Shown: one piece after another, positions 2,083-9,134 of the stretch | Layout of the letters: each line of letters starts with the position of its first letter | Numbering within the stretch: the stretch's first letter is position 1 | Source: an uncultured Bacteroides sp. | GTDB taxonomy: Bacteria; Bacteroidota; Bacteroidia; Bacteroidales; Bacteroidaceae | Direction of reading: 5' to 3' | Length of the DNA: 10,524 nt | Assembly: GCA_900546355.1 (NCBI GenBank) | Contig: URCM01000102.1 | Span: forward strand, 1 to 10,524 | Notes under the pieces: generated by a model | The model's input: only the letters and a program-made list of their open reading frames with translations | Told to the model about the DNA's origin: nothing | Database searches by the model: none | Program-made: the position numbers and the translations under genes

Positions 2083-2113
2083 TTTGTTTATTCGGGAAAA
2101 GGCTTTACCTTTG
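2083..2113 (+). promoter_or_regulatory. Promoter of the ilv operon
   Basis: TTTG (2083-2086), a 19-base spacer, then TACCTTTG (2106-2113) match the Bacteroides primary sigma-factor consensus of -33 TTTG and -7 TAnnTTTG with standard spacing. An AT-rich block (about 2048-2082) precedes it. Transcription should begin at about 2118-2122, some 22 bases before the leader-peptide ATG. Confidence 0.85.
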
Positions 2114-2143: not shown

Positions 2144-2233
2144 ATGACAACGGATACACGAATTAACTTGGCAGTCCTGCATTTGATTCACGTCGTGGTG
2201 GTACCAGGAGGTGAGGAAGGTTCGTGTATGTAG
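2144..2233 (+). CDS. ilv operon leader peptide (29 residues)
   Basis: A 29-codon frame lies between the ilv promoter and ilvD, starting ATG 2144 and ending TAG 2231-2233. Residues 7-20 read INLAVLHLIHVVVV: ten of fourteen are Ile, Leu or Val, including four consecutive Val codons at 2192-2203 (GTC GTG GTG GTA). This composition, together with the overlapping antiterminator and terminator downstream, is the hallmark of a transcription-attenuation leader that senses charged branched-chain tRNAs. The peptide itself probably has no function beyond its translation. The remainder (PGGEEGSCM) is encoded by the strand that can form the antiterminator, so a ribosome reading to the stop would sit on that segment. 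By analogy it corresponds to the ilv leader peptides of enterobacteria, although the sequence is not homologous as far as I can tell. Confidence 0.82.
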   Translation: MTTDTRINLAVLHLIHVVVVPGGEEGSCM

Positions 2234-2269
2234 TTGAATGTGGATATACGTTGAAAAGCCTTTCTCACC
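2210..2269 (+). promoter_or_regulatory. Antiterminator of the ilv attenuator
   Basis: GGTGAGGAAGG (2210-2220) can pair with CCTTTCTCACC (2259-2269): eleven consecutive pairs, one of them G-U. The right arm includes 2259-2266, which is also part of the left arm of the terminator at 2255-2289, so the two structures exclude each other. A ribosome stalled at the first Val codons (2192-2197) leaves 2210-2220 free and favours the antiterminator. A ribosome at the TAG (2231) should cover most of 2213-2243 and release the terminator arm. Pairing was read by eye; no folding energy was computed. Confidence 0.78.
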
Positions 2270-2289
2270 TGAGTTGAGAGAGGCTTTTT
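2255..2289 (+). terminator. Rho-independent attenuator terminator before ilvD
   Basis: AAAGCCTTTCTC (2255-2266) pairs with GAGAGAGGCTTT (2276-2287): a 12-bp stem with one G-U pair, a 9-base loop and a T-run at 2285-2289. It sits after the leader-peptide stop and ends only 30 bases before the ilvD start. It is therefore a conditional terminator inside the operon leader, not the end of a preceding gene. Confidence 0.82.
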
Positions 2290-2308: not shown

Positions 2309-2318
2309 ATATATGGAG

Positions 2319-4121
2319 ATGAAACATCAGTTACGCAGTTCAATGAGTACCGAAGGCCGCCGCATGGCGGGAGCCCGCGCTTTATGGGTAGCCAACGGAA
2401 TGAAGAAAGAAATGATGGGCAAACCGATTATCGCGGTGGTCAATTCGTTTACCCAGTTTGTGCCGGGGCATACGCACCTGCACGAAATAGGACAGATGGT
2501 GAAAGCTGAAATCGAACGGCAGGGATGCTTTGCCGCCGAGTTCAACACCATTGCCATTGATGACGGCATCGCCATGGGCCACGACGGAATGTTGTATTCA
2601 TTGCCTTCGCGCGACATCATCGCCGACAGCATTGAATATATGGTGAACGCGCACAAGGCGGATGCGATGATTTGCATTTCGAATTGCGACAAGATTACAC
2701 CGGGGATGCTGATGGCGGCGATGCGGCTCAATATTCCTACCGTCTTCGTATCGGGCGGACCGATGGAAGCGGGCGAGTGGGGAGGCATGCACCTCGACTT
2801 GATAGACGCGATGATTAAGTCGGCGGATACGAGCGTGAGCGATGCTGACGTGGCTGAAATCGAGCGTCACGCCTGTCCCGGATGCGGATGTTGTTCGGGC
2901 ATGTTCACCGCCAATTCGATGAATTGCCTGAACGAGGCGATCGGCCTTGCCCTGCCCGGAAACGGAACTATCCTTGCCACGCACGCCAACCGCAAGATTT
3001 TGTTTGAAGATGCGGCACGGCTCATCGTGGAGAATGCCTACAAATATTATCGTGATGGGGACGAAAGTGTATTGCCTCGCAGCATAGCTACCCGTGCGGC
3101 TTTTCTGAACGCCATGACGCTGGACATCGCCATGGGAGGCTCTACCAATACGGTGCTTCACCTGCTTGCCGTCGCCCACGAAGCGGAAGTGGATTTCCGC
3201 ATGGACGATATCGACCGTCTTTCGCGCCGTGTGCCCTGCCTTTGCAAGGTGGCTCCCAATACGCAGAAATACCATATTCAAGACGTGAACCGCGCGGGAG
3301 GTATTTTGAATATCCTGGGCGAGCTGGCAAAGGGCGGTTTGCTTGATACTTCGGTGCGCCGGGTAGACGGAACCACCTTGGCGGAAGCCATTGCCCGTTA
3401 TGATATAAATAAGGAGAATCCCGACTCGGAAGCATTGCGCATCTACCGGAGCGCGCCGGGCGGAAAGTTCTGCATCACGCTGGGCGCACAGGACGCGATG
3501 TATGACACGCTGGATACCGACCGTGCCACGGGATGCATCCGCGACTTGCAGCACGCTTATTCGAAGGACGGTGGGCTGGCGGTATTGAAAGGGAACATCG
3601 CACAGGACGGATGCGTGGTGAAGACGGCTGGAGTGGACGAGAGTATCTGGAAGTTCTCCGGTCCGGCGAAAGTGTTCGACTCGCAGGAAGCGGCATGCGA
3701 AGGTATTTTAGGTGGAAAGGTGGTGAGCGGTGATGTAGTGGTTATCACCCACGAAGGACCGAAGGGAGGTCCGGGTATGCAGGAGATGCTGTATCCTACG
3801 TCATACATCAAGTCGAAACACCTGGGCAAGGAGTGCGCGCTGATTACCGACGGGCGTTTCAGCGGAGGTACATCGGGACTGAGTATCGGACATATCTCGC
3901 CCGAGGCGGCTGCGGGAGGAAATATCGGTAAAATCGTGGACGGTGACATCATCGAGATAGATATCCCCAACCGTACGATAAACGTGAAGCTGAGCGACGA
4001 GGAGCTGGCGGCACGTCCGATGGCACCCGTTACGCGCGACCGCAAGGTGTCGAAAGCCTTGCATGCATACGCCGCAATGGTCAGCTCGGCGGATAAAGGT
4101 GGAGTGAGAATGATTGATTAA
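2319..4121 (+). CDS. ilvD: Dihydroxy-acid dehydratase
   Basis: Dehydrates 2,3-dihydroxy-isovalerate and 2,3-dihydroxy-3-methylvalerate to the keto acids that become Val (and Leu) and Ile; a cytoplasmic iron-sulfur enzyme of the IlvD/Edd family. Visible signatures are [11 protein letters not shown] with Cys123 and [16 protein letters not shown] from Cys186, plus the C-terminal [17 protein letters not shown] block. The N-terminal segment reads [11 protein letters not shown], as in the oxygen-labile [4Fe-4S] enzyme of E. coli, and lacks the extra cysteine of the [2Fe-2S] plant and mycobacterial type; this fits an anaerobe. From 2319 (MKHQLRSS) the protein has 600 residues, the length I recall for Bacteroides homologues. 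The ATG at 2313 would add Met-Glu, and an in-frame ATG at 2238 would overlap the attenuator terminator and is unlikely. First structural gene of the operon; ilvB follows after 22 bases. Confidence 0.95.
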
Positions 4122-4143: not shown

Positions 4144-5847
4144 ATGGCAAAAGAAAGAATAACAGGTTCGGAGGCATTGATGCGCTCTTTGGAACACGAA
4201 GGGGTAAAGACCCTCTTCGGTTATCCGGGGGGAGCTATCATGCCGGTATTTGATGCGTTATACGACCATCGCGATAGGTTGAATCATATCTTGGTACGTC
4301 ACGAACAAGGGGCGGCTCATGCGGCACAAGGCTTTGCCCGGGTATCGGGTGAGGTAGGCGTGTGCCTGGTGACGAGCGGACCTGGAGCGACGAATACCAT
4401 TACGGGCGTGGCGGACGCGATGATAGACAGTACGCCTATCGTGGTGATAGCCGGACAGGTAGGTGCTTCGTTATTGGGTACAGACGCGTTTCAGGAGGTG
4501 GATTTGGTAGGTGTGACCCAGCCGATTTCGAAATGGAGTTATCAGATACGCCGGGCGGAAGACGTGGCGTGGGCAGTATCGCGCGCGTTTTACCTCGCAC
4601 GGAGCGGACGTCCCGGTCCGGTGGTGCTCGACTTTGCGAAGAATGCGCAGACCGAACTGACCGATTACGAACCGTTGGATGTAGACTTTATCCGAAGCTA
4701 TGACCCCGACCCGGAGACCGACCCGAAGATAGTGGCAGAGGCGGTGAAGCTGATTAATGAAGCCCATCGTCCGCTGGTATTGGTGGGGCAGGGAGTAGAG
4801 CTGGGTAATGCGCAGGAAGAGTTGAAGGCGTTTGTCGAGAAAGCCGACATGCCTTGCGGATGTACCTTGCTGGGGCTTTCGGCATTGCCTTCCGACCACC
4901 GGTTGAATAAAGGAATGCTGGGCATGCATGGCAATCTGGCTCCGAACGTGAAGACCAACGAGTGTGACGTGCTGATAGCCGTGGGGATGCGTTTCGATGA
5001 CCGTGTGACGGGTAAGCTGGAAACATACGCCCGCCAGGCAAAGGTTATCCACTTGGATGTGGACCCGTCGGAGATTGGTAAGAATGTACCGGTGGATGTT
5101 CCTATCCTGGGAAACTGTAAACGCACATTGGCGTTGCTCACCGAGTTGATGCAGAGCCATAAGCACACGGAATGGATAGACAGCTTCGCTCCGTATGCCG
5201 AGAAAGAATACGAGCAGGTTATCCGTCCCGAAGTGTTCCCAGGCGAAGGATCGCTGAACATGGGCGAGGTGGTGAATGCGGTGAGTGAGGCTACCCGACA
5301 CGAAGCCATTCTGGTGACCGACGTGGGACAGAACCAGATGATGGCGTGCCGTTATTTCAAGTTTGCCCAGCAACGGAGTATTGTGACTTCGGGCGGCATG
5401 GGTACGATGGGCTTTTGCCTTCCTGCCGCCATTGGTGCCACATTCGGATGTCCGGGACGTACGGTATGCGCCTTTATGGGTGACGGAGGTTTGCAGATGA
5501 CATTGCAGGAATTAGGAACGGTAATGGAGCAGCAGGCACCCGTGAAACTGATTCTGATGAACAACAATTACCTGGGCAACGTACGCCAGTGGCAGGCGAT
5601 GTTCTTCAACAAGCGTTATTCGTTCACCCCGATGATGAACCCCGACTATATGCAGATAGCCGCCGCATACGGCATTCCGGGGCGCAGGGTGATGGAACGC
5701 GGGGAATTGGAAGAAGGCATCCGCGAAATGCTGGATACCGACGGACCTTTCTTGCTAGAGGTATGTGTGGTAGAAGAAGGCAATGTCCTCCCGATGACTC
5801 CTCCGGGAAGTTCGGTAAACGATATGCTGCTTGAATTGGATTGTTGA
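4144..5847 (+). CDS. ilvB: Acetolactate synthase, large (catalytic) subunit
   Basis: A thiamine-diphosphate enzyme condensing two pyruvates, or pyruvate plus 2-ketobutyrate, to acetolactate or acetohydroxybutyrate: the committed step of branched-chain amino acid synthesis. At 567 residues it has the usual length. The N-terminal Pyr domain shows FGYPGGAIMPVFDAL and the cofactor-activating Glu54 in RHEQGAAHAA. The middle FAD-binding region includes MRFDDRVTG. The C-terminal PP domain has GDGG (446-449) and the NNN at 473-475, forming the Mg-ThDP motif, followed by LGNVRQW. Trp483 appears to match the tryptophan (Trp464 in E. coli AHAS II) that favours 2-ketobutyrate, so both Val and Ile branches should be served. 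It lies 22 bases after ilvD and 26 before ilvN, its regulatory subunit, and shares their promoter and attenuator. Confidence 0.95.
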   Translation: MAKERITGSEALMRSLEHEGVKTLFGYPGGAIMPVFDALYDHRDRLNHILVRHEQGAAHAAQGFARVSGEVGVCLVTSGPGATNTITGVADAMIDSTPIVVIAGQVGASLLGTDAFQEVDLVGVTQPISKWSYQIRRAEDVAWAVSRAFYLARSGRPGPVVLDFAKNAQTELTDYEPLDVDFIRSYDPDPETDPKIVAEAVKLINEAHRPLVLVGQGVELGNAQEELKAFVEKADMPCGCTLLGLSALPSDHRLNKGMLGMHGNLAPNVKTNECDVLIAVGMRFDDRVTGKLETYARQAKVIHLDVDPSEIGKNVPVDVPILGNCKRTLALLTELMQSHKHTEWIDSFAPYAEKEYEQVIRPEVFPGEGSLNMGEVVNAVSEATRHEAILVTDVGQNQMMACRYFKFAQQRSIVTSGGMGTMGFCLPAAIGATFGCPGRTVCAFMGDGGLQMTLQELGTVMEQQAPVKLILMNNNYLGNVRQWQAMFFNKRYSFTPMMNPDYMQIAAAYGIPGRRVMERGELEEGIREMLDTDGPFLLEVCVVEEGNVLPMTPPGSSVNDMLLELDC

Positions 5848-5873: not shown

Positions 5874-6431
5874 ATGGATAATAAGACCTTATATACAATC
5901 ATTGTTCACTCTGAGAACTTTGCCGGATTGCTGAATCAGGTAACGGCTGTATTTACCCGCCGGCAAATCAATATCGAGAGTCTGAACGTTTCGGCTTCTT
6001 CCATTAAGGGAGTACATAAATATACAATAACCTGTTGGACCACCCCCGATATAGTGGAAAAGGTGGTGCGTCAGATAGAAAAGAAAATTGATGTCATCCA
6101 GGCACATTATTTCACCGAGAAGGAAATCTTCCAGCGCGAGGTGGCGATGTACAAGGTTTCCACACCCGAATTCCAGTCGAATCCCGAGGCATCGAAGGTG
6201 GTGCGCCGTGCCAGCGCGCACATCGTGGAGGTGAACCCTACGTTCTGCATCGTGGAACTGACGGCTATGAGCGAGGAAATCACCGACCTCTATCAGAAAC
6301 TGAGAGACCTGAACTGTATGCTTCAGTTCGTCCGTTCGGGACGGATAGCCGTGTCTACCAGTTGTTTCGAACGGGTAAACGAATACCTGGCGCATCGGGA
6401 AGAACGTTATCTGAAAGAGAAAAAAGACTGA
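5874..6431 (+). CDS. ilvN: Acetolactate synthase, small (regulatory) subunit
   Basis: The regulatory partner of IlvB, raising its activity and conferring valine feedback inhibition. The N-terminal ACT domain (residues about 4-80) reads VHSENFAGLLNQ then RRQINIESLNVS. Gly18 and Asn33 have the same 15-residue spacing as the valine-binding Gly14 and Asn29 of E. coli IlvH, so end-product inhibition is probably kept. The C-terminal part (about 95-175), with VSTPEF, VEVNPTFCIVELT and LQFVRSGRIAVSTS, matches the ALS small-subunit C-terminal domain. At 185 residues it is somewhat longer than the roughly 160 of IlvH, consistent with Bacteroides homologues as I remember them. The thioesterase gene follows after 20 bases, so it is clearly operonic. 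Confidence 0.93.
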   Translation: MDNKTLYTIIVHSENFAGLLNQVTAVFTRRQINIESLNVSASSIKGVHKYTITCWTTPDIVEKVVRQIEKKIDVIQAHYFTEKEIFQREVAMYKVSTPEFQSNPEASKVVRRASAHIVEVNPTFCIVELTAMSEEITDLYQKLRDLNCMLQFVRSGRIAVSTSCFERVNEYLAHREERYLKEKKD

Positions 6432-6451: not shown

Positions 6452-7198
6452 ATGGAAGCAAAAGAGAAAGTGGGCAGATACGAGTTTGTGGCAGAACCTT
6501 TCCACGTGGACTTTACCGGTAGGCTTACGATGGGCGTGCTGGGCAACCATTTGTTGAATTGTGCGGGATTCCACGCCGCCGACCGTGGGTTCGGGATAGC
6601 CGTATTGAACGAGAACCATTACACATGGGTGCTTTCACGCCTGGCGGTGGAAATGGACGAGATGCCGAAAGCGTATGAGAAGTTCAGCATCGAGACATGG
6701 GTAGAAAATGTGTACCGCCTTTTTACCGACCGCAACTTTGCGATTCTGAATGCGGAAGGCAATCCTATCGGTTATGCGCGTTCGGTATGGGCAATGATTA
6801 GCATGGAGACCCGTAAGCCTGCCGACCTGTTTCTTTTGCACGGTAATGAAATCACAGGTTATGTATGCACCGACAAGCCTTGTCCCATCGAGAAAGCGGG
6901 TAGGGTGAAGGTGAACCAGACGCAACCTGTGGCGGAATATCACACCAGATATAGTGACATTGATTTGAACGGGCACGTGAACAGTATCAAGTATATCGAG
7001 CATATCCTCGACCTGTTCCCGTTAGAGATGTTCCGCGAGAAGACGTTGCATCGTTTTGAGGTGGCATACGCTGCCGAAAGTCATTATGGCGATACGCTGG
7101 AATTTTACCGTGAACAAAAATCCGAGAACGAGTACGACATTGAGGTACGGAAGAATGGTACCGAGACTGCGATTCGGAGTAAAGTGATATTTTTTTAA
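6452..7198 (+). CDS. Acyl-ACP thioesterase (FatA/FatB-like, double hotdog)
   Basis: Predicted to hydrolyse acyl-ACP to free fatty acid in the cytoplasm. The 248-residue protein has the two-hotdog layout of the plant FatA/FatB family: an N-terminal half with FHVDFTGRLTMGVLGNHLLN and a C-terminal half with YHTRYSDIDLNGHVNSIKY. Asp171, Asn173 and His175 form the DxNxH catalytic motif. Glu209 lies 34 residues after the His, the same distance as between the catalytic His285 and Glu319 of plant FatB as I recall it. A Bacteroides thetaiotaomicron homologue in the same operon position was, from memory, solved by structural genomics (2ESS). It lies between ilvN (20-base gap) and ilvC (52-base gap). 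That placement suggests a link with branched-chain acyl chains, whose primers derive from the keto acids made here, but the acyl preference cannot be read from sequence. Confidence 0.88.
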   Translation: MEAKEKVGRYEFVAEPFHVDFTGRLTMGVLGNHLLNCAGFHAADRGFGIAVLNENHYTWVLSRLAVEMDEMPKAYEKFSIETWVENVYRLFTDRNFAILNAEGNPIGYARSVWAMISMETRKPADLFLLHGNEITGYVCTDKPCPIEKAGRVKVNQTQPVAEYHTRYSDIDLNGHVNSIKYIEHILDLFPLEMFREKTLHRFEVAYAAESHYGDTLEFYREQKSENEYDIEVRKNGTETAIRSKVIFF

Positions 7199-7250: not shown

Positions 7251-8294
7251 ATGGCAAAAATGAATTTTGGCGGGGTAATTGAAAACGTAGAAACCCGCGA
7301 AGAATTTCCTTTGGAGAAAGCACGTGAAGTATTGAAAGACGAAACCATAGCCGTAATCGGTTACGGCGTACAGGGACCGGGTCAGTCATTGAACCTGCGC
7401 GATAACGGATTCAATGTTATCGTGGGCCAGCGTCCGGGCAAGACATACGATAAAGCCGTGGCAGACGGATGGGTGCCGGGCGAAACCCTTTTCGGCATCG
7501 AAGAAGCTTGTGAACGCGCTACGATTATCGCGGTATTGCTCTCGGATGCGGCACAAATCGCTTGCTGGCCGACTATCGAGAAACATCTTACCGCCGGCAA
7601 GGCGTTGTATTTCTCTCACGGATTCGCCATCACTTGGAACGACCGTACAGGCGTGGTTCCCCCGAAAGACGTGGATGTGATTATGGTAGCTCCGAAAGGT
7701 TCGGGCACTTCGCTTCGCACGATGTTCCTCGAAGGCCGTGGCTTGAACTCTTCGTATGCTATCTATCAGGATGCTACCGGCAAGGCTTGGGACCGTGTTA
7801 TCGCAATGGGTATCGGTATCGGTTCGGGTTATCTGTTCGAAACCACTTTCCAGCGTGAAGCTACTTCCGATTTGACCGGTGAACGCGGTACGTTGATGGG
7901 TGCTATCCAAGGCTTGCTTCTGGCTCAATACGAAACATTGCGTGAGCACGGACATACGCCTTCCGAAGCGTTCAATGAAACCGTAGAGGAGTTGACCCAG
8001 TCGTTGATGCCGCTTTTCGCAGCTAAGGGTATGGACTGGATGTACGCCAATTGTTCTACTACTGCTCAGCGTGGTGCGCTTGACTGGATGGTTCCCTTCC
8101 ACGATGCAACCAAGCCCGTGTTCGAGAAACTGTACAAGTCAGTAGCCGATGGCTTGGAAGCACAGCGTTCTATTGATTCGAATTCTCAACCCGACTATCG
8201 TGAAAAATTGAACGAAGAGCTGAAAGCATTGCGCGAAAGCGAAATGTGGCAGACGGGTGTTGTAGTGCGCAAGCTCCGCCCCGAAAACAACTGA
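7251..8294 (+). CDS. ilvC: Ketol-acid reductoisomerase
   Basis: Carries out the Mg-dependent alkyl shift and NAD(P)H reduction of acetolactate or acetohydroxybutyrate to the dihydroxy acids used by IlvD. The N-terminal Rossmann domain has GYGVQG (37-42). The specificity loop GQRPGKTYDKA (59-69) has Arg61 and Lys64 available for an NADPH phosphate but not the usual Ser. His123 in YFSHGF and Lys149 in VAPKGSG match active-site regions. The metal ligands are expected at Asp207 and Glu211 in SDLTGERG. At 347 residues it has a single knotted C-terminal domain (class I length), yet the sequence resembles fungal Ilv5 more than E. coli IlvC, down to the C-terminal VRKLRPENN. It is the last gene of the operon, followed by a strong terminator. 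Confidence 0.95.
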   Translation: MAKMNFGGVIENVETREEFPLEKAREVLKDETIAVIGYGVQGPGQSLNLRDNGFNVIVGQRPGKTYDKAVADGWVPGETLFGIEEACERATIIAVLLSDAAQIACWPTIEKHLTAGKALYFSHGFAITWNDRTGVVPPKDVDVIMVAPKGSGTSLRTMFLEGRGLNSSYAIYQDATGKAWDRVIAMGIGIGSGYLFETTFQREATSDLTGERGTLMGAIQGLLLAQYETLREHGHTPSEAFNETVEELTQSLMPLFAAKGMDWMYANCSTTAQRGALDWMVPFHDATKPVFEKLYKSVADGLEAQRSIDSNSQPDYREKLNEELKALRESEMWQTGVVVRKLRPENN

Positions 8295-8358: not shown

Positions 8359-8447
8359 TTTTGTATTGCATTGGAGGGAAGGAAACTGTGCTTGAAGTCT
8401 TTTGACTTTCTTAACACTGTAATTCCCCTTTAATAAGAAAAGCTTTG

Positions 8448-8455
8448 TACATTTG
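8448..8455 (+). promoter_or_regulatory. -7 element of the PepSY-like gene promoter
   Basis: TACATTTG matches the Bacteroides -7 consensus TAnnTTTG and is followed by the common C. It lies 25 bases before the ATG at 8481 and downstream of the ilvC terminator. I found no good TTTG at -33; the region there is CCCC-rich, so the promoter may be weak or need an activator. Its position argues against an upstream in-frame ATG at 8445. Confidence 0.55.
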
Positions 8456-8480
8456 CCTAAACCATAAAAACAGACGATTT

Positions 8481-9134
8481 ATGAAAATGCGTGTATTTTG
8501 GGGAATGCTGGCTATGTGCTTTGTAATGGGTGCGTATGCCGAAAGTGATCCGACCTCCTTTGTACGTAAACGTTATCCGAACGCCCGTATCTTGGATAAA
8601 GATTACGATGACGGGTTTATCGAAGTGAAGATGAATCATCGGGGAGCGGAAAAAATTGTGATTTTTAATCACGACGGGGATTGGTTGCGTACGATGTGGG
8701 AAGTGCGCCGAAGCCGCCTTCCTCGTGCAGTCATCAATGTGTTGAAGCGTTCAGGATTTGTTTATGAAGAAATAGACGATAACGATAACAAAGCGATGGA
8801 GAACCGTCGGGGGATGTATTACATCGTGCAAGCCGACCGGAACGACCGGAGCTACGTATTGGTTGTATCAGAAAGAGGCAATATCATCGAGCGTTTTTAC
8901 GATGACGAGTGGGATGATGAATGGGATGAAGGACGCTGGGAAGGTGAGTTCTGGGATGACGGGGAAGACCATTTCGATGAAGGAGACGATGAATGGGACG
9001 ACCGTCGTTATCGTCCGCGCCATCACCGCGACCATCGTCATCACGGTTGTTGCGGACATGACGATGAAGACGAAGACGATGGAGAAGACCATTTTGATGA
9101 AGGAGATGATGAATGGGACGACGGAGAGGCTTGA
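8481..9134 (+). CDS. Secreted PepSY-like protein with acidic, His/Cys-containing repeat tail
   Basis: A 217-residue exported protein. Residues 1-20 form a signal peptide (KMR, hydrophobic core WGMLAMCFVMG, cleavage after AYA), so it acts in the periplasm or outside. Residues about 23-145 resemble the PepSY-like domain common in secreted Bacteroidales proteins (FVRKRYPNARI, IVIFNHDGDWL, LPRAVINVL, YYIVQADRNDRSYVLVV). The tail from about 147 is dominated by Asp, Glu, Gly and Trp and contains the 16-residue unit DDGEDHFDEGDDEWDD twice (159-174 and 199-214). Between them lies a cluster with six His and two Cys in thirteen residues (181-193), which suggests divalent metal binding. The ATG at 8481 is chosen because the longer frame begins inside the promoter. 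The next gene starts 22 bases before this one stops. The function of this protein is unknown to me; the family and metal roles are inference. Confidence 0.82.
   Translation: MKMRVFWGMLAMCFVMGAYAESDPTSFVRKRYPNARILDKDYDDGFIEVKMNHRGAEKIVIFNHDGDWLRTMWEVRRSRLPRAVINVLKRSGFVYEEIDDNDNKAMENRRGMYYIVQADRNDRSYVLVVSERGNIIERFYDDEWDDEWDEGRWEGEFWDDGEDHFDEGDDEWDDRRYRPRHHRDHRHHGCCGHDDEDEDDGEDHFDEGDDEWDDGEA
8955..9122 (+). repeat. Two 48-bp direct repeats in the PepSY-like gene tail
   Basis: The copies are 8955-9002 and 9075-9122, 120 bases apart. Both encode the same 16 residues, DDGEDHFDEGDDEWDD. They differ at five bases by eye, each at a third codon position and each silent. Both also contain AAGGAG followed seven bases later by an ATG in the +2 frame; only the second of these opens a long frame. 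Confidence 0.9.
9100..9105 (+). promoter_or_regulatory. Ribosome binding site of the MFS gene inside the upstream gene
   Basis: AAGGAG is spaced 7 bases from the ATG at 9113. It lies within codons for Asp-Glu-Gly-Asp of the PepSY-like protein's repeat, so the two genes are expected to be translationally coupled. Confidence 0.6.

Follow-up and report, generated by a model that had tools for sequence, protein, structure and literature searches.

In the trp operon of E. coli, a ribosome stalled on the leader peptide favours an antiterminator, a completed leader favours a terminator, and a protector helix forces termination when the leader is untranslated. The ilv operon of E. coli is also preceded by a leader-peptide attenuator. 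Within the Bacteroidota, the Bacteroid-trp RNA has been read as a leader-peptide element, and Flavobacterium psychrophilum, for which similar proposals exist, represents another class of that phylum. The phylum is said not to rely on Shine-Dalgarno starts.

A leader-peptide attenuator of ilvBNC is described in Corynebacterium (PMC10272879; see also PMC11857589), and the Bacteroid-trp RNA, RF01692, has been tabulated as a candidate regulatory RNA of Bacteroidetes (PMC2864571). For Flavobacterium psychrophilum, one study speaks of 'strong clues' for leader-peptide attenuation before amino-acid operons (PMC9723704), and passages on the 5' UTRs of B. thetaiotaomicron mention leader-peptide clues in general words (PMC7366714). 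Here we analyse the region upstream of an ilv operon in a 10,524-nucleotide stretch of DNA, referred to as the window. Comparative sequence analysis and folding models indicate that this region very probably encodes an attenuator of the classical ribosome-mediated type, which would control transcription of the operon ilvD-ilvB-ilvN-thioesterase-ilvC.

The ilv operon and its leader region

The five genes of the operon (Table 1) lie downstream of a glycosyltransferase gene at 745-1842. Among the matches listed, the closest relative of the ilvD product is that of Candidatus Phocaeicola gallistercoris (Bacteroidales), with 98% identity over residues 2-551. Several features of the surroundings were recorded in passing. 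Behind the glycosyltransferase gene, an inverted repeat AACGTCCAATTTTGA ... TCAGAATTGGACGTT (about 1891-1950) was read by eye and is perhaps the terminator of that gene. A tblastn relative of the thioesterase gene, which stands between ilvN and ilvC, follows ilvN in 20 of 80 ilvD loci, and its presence in an ilv operon suggests a possible link to fatty-acid metabolism. The protein encoded at 8445-9134 has a repetitive tail rich in Asp, Glu, Trp and His, and the next gene, for an AmpG-like transporter, begins at 9113, within the same stretch; the protein had no match in Pfam or NCBIfam at E 0.001. A mobile origin was sought by a near-identity search of phage records, which gave no match.

Table 1. 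Positions of the leader elements and operon genes in the window
Feature	Position	Strand	Basis
Promoter of Bacteroidota type: TTTG 2083-2086, 19 nt, TACCTTTG 2106-2113	2083..2113	+	motif
Leader peptide ORF, 29 codons, MTTDTRINLAVLHLIHVVVVPGGEEGSCM, ATG 2144, stop TAG 2231-2233	2144..2233	+	ORF scan; codon content
Possible enclosing helix in ribosome-free RNA, 2154-2164 x 2219-2229	2154..2229	+	window MFE
Val run GTC GTG GTG GTA, proposed stall site	2192..2203	+	codon-to-arm distance, co-transcriptional folding
Antiterminator left arm AGGTGAGGAAGGTT	2209..2222	+	14-bp pairing with 2257-2270
Intrinsic terminator hairpin, 15 pairs 2253-2267 x 2275-2289, T-run 2285-2289	2253..2289	+	fold; equivalent helix covaries (42 loci)
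Antiterminator right arm AGCCTTTCTCACCT	2257..2270	+	pairing with 2209-2222; covariation of equivalent helix
ilvD, dihydroxy-acid dehydratase, first gene of the operon	2313..4121	+	TIGR00110, NF009103 above cut-off
ilvB, acetolactate synthase large subunit	4144..5847	+	TIGR00118 above cut-off
ilvN, acetolactate synthase small subunit	5874..6431	+	TIGR00119 above cut-off
Acyl-ACP thioesterase gene within the operon	6452..7198	+	PF01643, PF20791 above cut-off
ilvC, ketol-acid reductoisomerase	7251..8294	+	TIGR00465 above cut-off

The initial annotation described a 29-codon leader with ten Ile/Leu/Val codons in fourteen and four Val in a row, and the frame scan bore this out. The ten codons fall among leader codons 7-20, and the frame is the richest in Ile, Leu and Val among all 12-45 codon frames of the window that begin with ATG, GTG or TTG. 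The promoter placed before this leader was likewise upheld, as one of Bacteroidota type, with TTTG and TACCTTTG in what we take to be the roles of the -33 and -7 elements of that phylum; transcription would probably start near 2120. A sigma-70 consensus scan did not list this promoter, which belongs to a different type. Of the 87 leaders that have at least 60 nt of upstream sequence, 68 carry TAnnTTTG in the 120 nt before their ATG, whereas shuffling these upstream regions at constant composition would give 7.9.

Eleven Bacteroidaceae leaders, the window included, were compared more closely. They have in common a block like NLAVLHIIRVVV that extends beyond the branched-chain residues, with a pN/pS of 0.36 over a 12-codon leader block, and A-rich sequence precedes the start codon. 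Several third codon positions at 2165-2203 and in the Bacteroidaceae relatives (GTC GTG GTG, ATT ATT CGC) look conserved by eye, which might reflect an extra RNA-level constraint outside the attenuation model.

The RNA from 2120 to 2290 folds at -54.6 kcal/mol (z = -4.5, 200 shuffles). The 11-bp antiterminator first proposed, GGTGAGGAAGG at 2210-2220 with CCTTTCTCACC at 2259-2269, was correct and forms the core of the 14-bp pairing in Table 1, and the segment 2257-2267 is common to its right arm and the left arm of the terminator. A terminator with a T-run is present as claimed, at 15 pairs (2253-2289) and not the 12 bp (2255-2289) given earlier. Its tail is not ideal, because the stem in its longest form takes in all five T and ACTT comes next. 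The position of the T-run within the stem is also why a simple consensus scan, which expects the run after the stem, did not list this terminator.

The possible enclosing helix is topologically incompatible with the antiterminator. Among five leaders compared, equivalents of 11, 9 and 6 bp were seen in L002, L003 and L001, and L005 has an unrelated 10-bp pairing; the helix was rejected as a protector, not being kept beyond L002 and L003. RNAalifold on 10 Bacteroidaceae leaders gave a candidate protector helix with 0 compensatory pairs.

Distribution among relatives

Leaders were sought around the best 80 ilvD loci of at least 596 relatives (1.377 Mb, both strands). The detector took ATG frames of 10-45 codons in which the best 14 codons reached a threshold count of Ile, Leu and Val, followed by a terminator. 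At threshold 10 there were 34 matches, of which 33 lie upstream of ilvD, one upstream of leuA and none elsewhere. Threshold 9 gave 39 (36 ilvD, 1 leuA, 2 elsewhere) and threshold 8 gave 51 (40 ilvD, 2 leuA, 9 elsewhere), and the ilvD upstream windows make up 1.2% of the sequence scanned. Counted by locus, 33 of the 80 have a leader upstream of ilvD at threshold 9, in a set where 14 loci are non-Bacteroidota by title and six offer no more than 240 nt of upstream sequence. The detector needs an ATG and at least four T, and L007 was missed because its T-run is broken, though its leader is plain. Among loci titled Prevotella or Prevotellaceae, one of ten (L028) has a leader at threshold 9.

Sampling was then widened, with ilvD found in 69 of 148 genomes of the order and 147 of 198 of the phylum. 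Leader and terminator were detected in 51 of 70 order-drawn ilvD upstream regions at threshold 8 (48 at 9, 45 at 10), and the detector found no leader in the other 19 at threshold 8. The 70 phylum-drawn regions comprise, among the matches listed, the 30 best-scoring and 40 picked along the list; 12 had a leader at threshold 8, 10 at 9 and 3 at 10, some of them weak, and at threshold 8 none was detected in 58. The Ile/Leu/Val-rich frame is kept in relatives, a point that the initial annotation had proposed to check, with 33 of the 34 strong matches before ilvD and 51 of 70 order-level regions positive at threshold 8. At least six ilvD loci (L058, L067, L068, L291, L292, L296) carry two leader-terminator units, one behind the other.

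A covariance model was made from the leaders of 42 loci, with the window excluded, and it matches the window at 2206-2291 with E = 3e-7. When 20 whole genomes were searched with this model, with 150 candidates scored per genome, 18 of them gave matches at E up to 0.01, 22 in all; these are mostly ilvD leaders, with some leuA leaders, two at asnA and one (L367) at a contig end.

Covariation of the two helices

Alignment A1 holds 42 short-type leaders, in which the antiterminator has 8 bp or more and begins within the 8 nt that precede the stop, and was drawn from an earlier, smaller leader set than the final 90. Measured on a structure read from one sequence and the A1 consensus, which favours it over slid versions, 88.1% of antiterminator cells are paired versus 77.2% when shuffled and 44-58% when slid, and the terminator gives 90.2% versus 80.0% and 45-60%. 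Doubly changed cells number 38 in the antiterminator versus 12.2 shuffled and 35 in the terminator versus 8.9, values reached in 0 of 500 shuffles for either helix. The separation is smallest for the number of pairs that show a double change at all, at 8 versus 5.1 (7 of 500 shuffles) and 8 versus 4.9 (1 of 500), respectively. Both helices covary by shuffle tests over 42 loci.

In these aligned sequences the arm, the shared segment and the terminator change together: at one triple of columns 20 loci have A-T-A and 6 have T-A-T, and at another 30 have A-T-A and 3 have G-C-G. In a swap test on 90 distinct leaders, a set that excludes scores below 9 (L325 and L332 among them) and the second matches of tandem regions in L230-L339, the pairing sum with the own terminator was 1877.6 versus 1393.1 for exchanged terminators (sd 32.1; 0 of 20,000). 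Only 49 of the 90 ranked their own terminator in the top tenth; L123, L135 and L301 had been dropped by eye as unlike the other leaders.

Codon-to-arm geometry and folding

Geometry and folding were counted on the 74 of 90 leaders with an antiterminator of at least 7 bp, and since the 16 with shorter helices were left out, these counts favour the model. The first base of the last codon in the branched-chain run stands, at the median, 14 nt upstream of the arm, with an sd of 2.75, a range of 2-18 and quartiles at 12 and 15.75. The position of the stop codon relative to the arm has an sd of 8.94, and exchanging arm positions among loci gives a mean sd of 9.94 with a minimum of 6.83 in 5,000. The near-fixed distance is about one ribosome downstream edge, which PMC4833913 places some 12 nt beyond the translated codon. 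Such leaders would serve as a natural ribosome ruler in Bacteroidota, in which the 12-16 nt from last regulatory codon to arm predict the downstream edge of the ribosome and imply coordinated transcription and translation. In the window, the last Val codon starts 8 nt and the first 17 nt before the extended arm.

Two designs were found. In 58 of the 74 leaders, the short type, the arm starts at most 8 nt before the stop, and the remaining 16 are long leaders of the window type, in which the ribosome has to translate through the antiterminator arm. The arm of short Bacteroidaceae leaders, GTGAGAAAGG, itself supplies a TGA stop, and that of long leaders is read as GGT GAG GAA (window) or GGT GAG AAA; the same arm is thus a stop in one design and sense codons in the other, which argues that the RNA arm is kept and not the peptide end.

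Switching was modelled co-transcriptionally, with RNA made to the terminator loop, a ribosome edge at +13 and pairing across the ribosome disallowed. With the first codon of the run in the A site, the antiterminator formed in all 74 loci, and with the last codon in 71. A ribosome at the stop allowed it in 0 of the 74, and ribosome-free RNA formed it in 54. With the edge at +11 or +15, the last-codon count was 73 or 63 of 74. Stalling at the Val codons does leave the left arm of the window free in this model, as first proposed, with P(AT) at edge +13 of 0.99 at Val17, 0.99 at Val18, 0.85 at Val19 and 0.61 at Val20, falling to 0.38 at Pro21 and 0.01 at Gly22. The companion claim, that a ribosome at the TAG covers this arm, holds only in part: such a ribosome would reach just the 3' part, because the arm occupies the stretch from 22 to 9 nt before the stop. 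In the 58 short leaders the arm is covered more directly by a ribosome at the stop.

Equilibrium folding with the full terminator switched only 18 of 74 loci, the terminator winning in most; the window does switch, at Val17-18. This version was set aside as a switch test in favour of the co-transcriptional one. With so few loci switching at equilibrium, the choice would have to fall during transcription, the antiterminator persisting kinetically.

Related leaders at other amino-acid operons

Twenty genomes of relatives were surveyed for sister elements. Leu/Ile-rich leaders with a terminator precede leuA at 10 of 20 loci (L086-L096), at a distance of 13-16 nt. His-rich leaders with a terminator occur at 16 of 22 hisG loci, two of which are one place (L166-L186; median 18 nt, range 7-22), and Phe-rich leaders with a terminator at 13 of 20 pheA loci (L211-L229; median 15 nt, range 12-20). 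For trp, 25 trpE loci were fetched and 18 scanned, L159-L165 being left out, and a Trp-rich leader with a terminator is clear at 14 of the 18 (L141-L156), several of these leaders lying about 1.4 kb before trpE. A simple antiterminator helix does not fit most of the trp leaders at these 14 loci, and five scanned trpE loci with Trp-rich leaders gave no match to RF01692 at gathering score.

Leader and terminator were found at 2 of 21 asnA loci, both in Marinifilaceae. Immediately ahead of asnA, both loci have a tandem pair of Asn-rich leaders like MDKQFKNNNNNNNSRPE, at distances of 13-17 nt, and every leader has its own antiterminator and terminator. These units, at 1142-1360 of L392 and 1098-1350 of L394 (in the genomes of L067 Labilibaculum and L058 Marinifilum), were found via the ilv covariance model and likely represent an asparagine attenuator, judging from their codons. 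Tandem leader-terminator units were also seen upstream of hisG (L176) and trpE (L141). A threonine attenuator before homoserine dehydrogenase/aspartokinase genes was found in none of 17 regions, whose positions were estimated, so that the real gene start may fall outside them.

We give an even chance to the broader view that the Bacteroidales possess an order-wide set of footprint-tuned leader-peptide attenuators, at ilvD, leuA, hisG, pheA, trp and, in Marinifilaceae, asnA, some in tandem, that lack a protector helix and read through when the leader is untranslated. If so, leader attenuation would be a main mode of amino-acid control in the phylum, and ribosome and RNA polymerase would have to move in step.

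Proposed mechanism and alternatives

A short ORF rich in codons for the products of the pathway lies between promoter and operon. The antiterminator and terminator are mutually exclusive and share one segment, and in the co-transcriptional model the arm is free with the ribosome at the regulatory codons but not at the stop (18 of 74 loci at equilibrium). The frame, codon bias, pair of helices, covariation, geometry, promoter motif and conservation are computed results; that the leader is translated, that ribosomes stall on it, that transcripts end there in vivo and which amino acid is sensed are inferred. RNA polymerase would start near 2120, with a ribosome translating the leader close behind. 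When charged Val-tRNA, or to a lesser degree Ile- or Leu-tRNA, is scarce, the ribosome would stall on the Val run, its front reaching 2209 at most. The left arm, 2209-2222, would stay free and could pair with 2257-2270 as the latter emerges, so that the terminator is blocked and the operon transcribed. When the tRNA is charged, the ribosome would pass over the arm to the stop, 2253-2267 would pair with 2275-2289, and the terminator so formed would end transcription near 2289-2293.

Over the last six branched-chain residues, the 90 ilvD leaders contain 270 Val, 148 Ile and 122 Leu, and the ten leuA leaders 31 Leu, 26 Ile and 3 Val. The likeliest main signal for the ilv operon, to judge by these codons, is Val, with Ile and Leu contributing.

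Three other readings of the locus were weighed. The best of them, itself most improbable, is that regulation works through nascent-peptide arrest or translation re-initiation at ilvD, not through codon-dependent termination. The block like NLAVLHIIRVVV recurring in 11 Bacteroidaceae leaders and the several third positions that look conserved would suit it, but other leaders differ in peptide while branched-chain richness and the distance to the arm recur, and in the window 79 nt including the terminator separate the leader from ilvD. A direct RNA sensor (a T-box or amino-acid riboswitch) or a protein-bound antiterminator, using the same helices with the ORF incidental, is more improbable still. 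Any ligand able to expose or mask the left arm could work through these helices alone; however, what recurs upstream of that arm is a codon run, varying in sequence at a near-fixed distance, which changes with the operon from Val-weighted at ilvD to Leu/Ile at leuA and His, Phe or Asn elsewhere. An Rfam scan of the window matched no family at gathering score, T-box and amino-acid riboswitch models included, and at E up to 5 the scores lay far below cut-off, in line with the initial distinction of the element from a T-box or riboswitch. We give equally little credence to a plain terminator for upstream or antisense transcription beside a chance Ile/Leu/Val-rich frame, since the hairpin is strong by itself but the promoter motif precedes most leaders, codon-rich leader plus terminator is nearly confined to the regions ahead of ilvD and leuA, each antiterminator arm changes in concert with the terminator of its own locus, and the inverted repeat at about 1891-1950 could already end the upstream gene's transcript.

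Ribosome-mediated attenuation, the reading offered by the initial annotation, is the one that the sequence comparisons and folding models support, through the codon run, the exclusive helices, the three-way covariation, the fixed distance and the promoter motif across Bacteroidales. It suggests how the synthesis of branched-chain amino acids may be controlled in dominant gut bacteria, and the alignments could found a new Rfam entry.

Comparison with known systems

As in the E. coli trp attenuator, a stalled ribosome would favour the antiterminator and a completed leader the terminator. In contrast to that system, no conserved protector helix was found among the leaders compared here, and in the co-transcriptional model the ribosome-free RNA forms the antiterminator in most loci. 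The Bacteroid-trp RNA resembles the window element in being a candidate regulatory RNA of the same phylum, assigned by its name to trp genes; it differs in that the RF01692 covariance model finds no match in the window. Flavobacterium psychrophilum shares the phylum, and its 5' elements at pheA and hisG are shared within its family, but section 19 of PMC9723704 names no ilv element and contains no test of mechanism.

The nearest likeness is to the ilvBNC leader of Corynebacterium and to the ilv leader of E. coli, in which a leader peptide rich in branched-chain residues, an antiterminator and a terminator precede branched-chain amino-acid genes. Unlike these, the window leader precedes ilvD, is Val-weighted, has no Rfam match and, as in the 11 Bacteroidaceae leaders, is A-rich before its start. 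No ilv leader of Bacteroidales was found described in the literature searched. A comparative survey of attenuation by Lopatovskaya et al. from 2010 may already contain such predictions. The initial statement that an ilv version was undescribed holds for the Bacteroidota within that literature, with reservations for PMC9723704 and that survey. The type of mechanism is known, including its ilv form in Corynebacterium, and the window element is therefore a new example of a known control.
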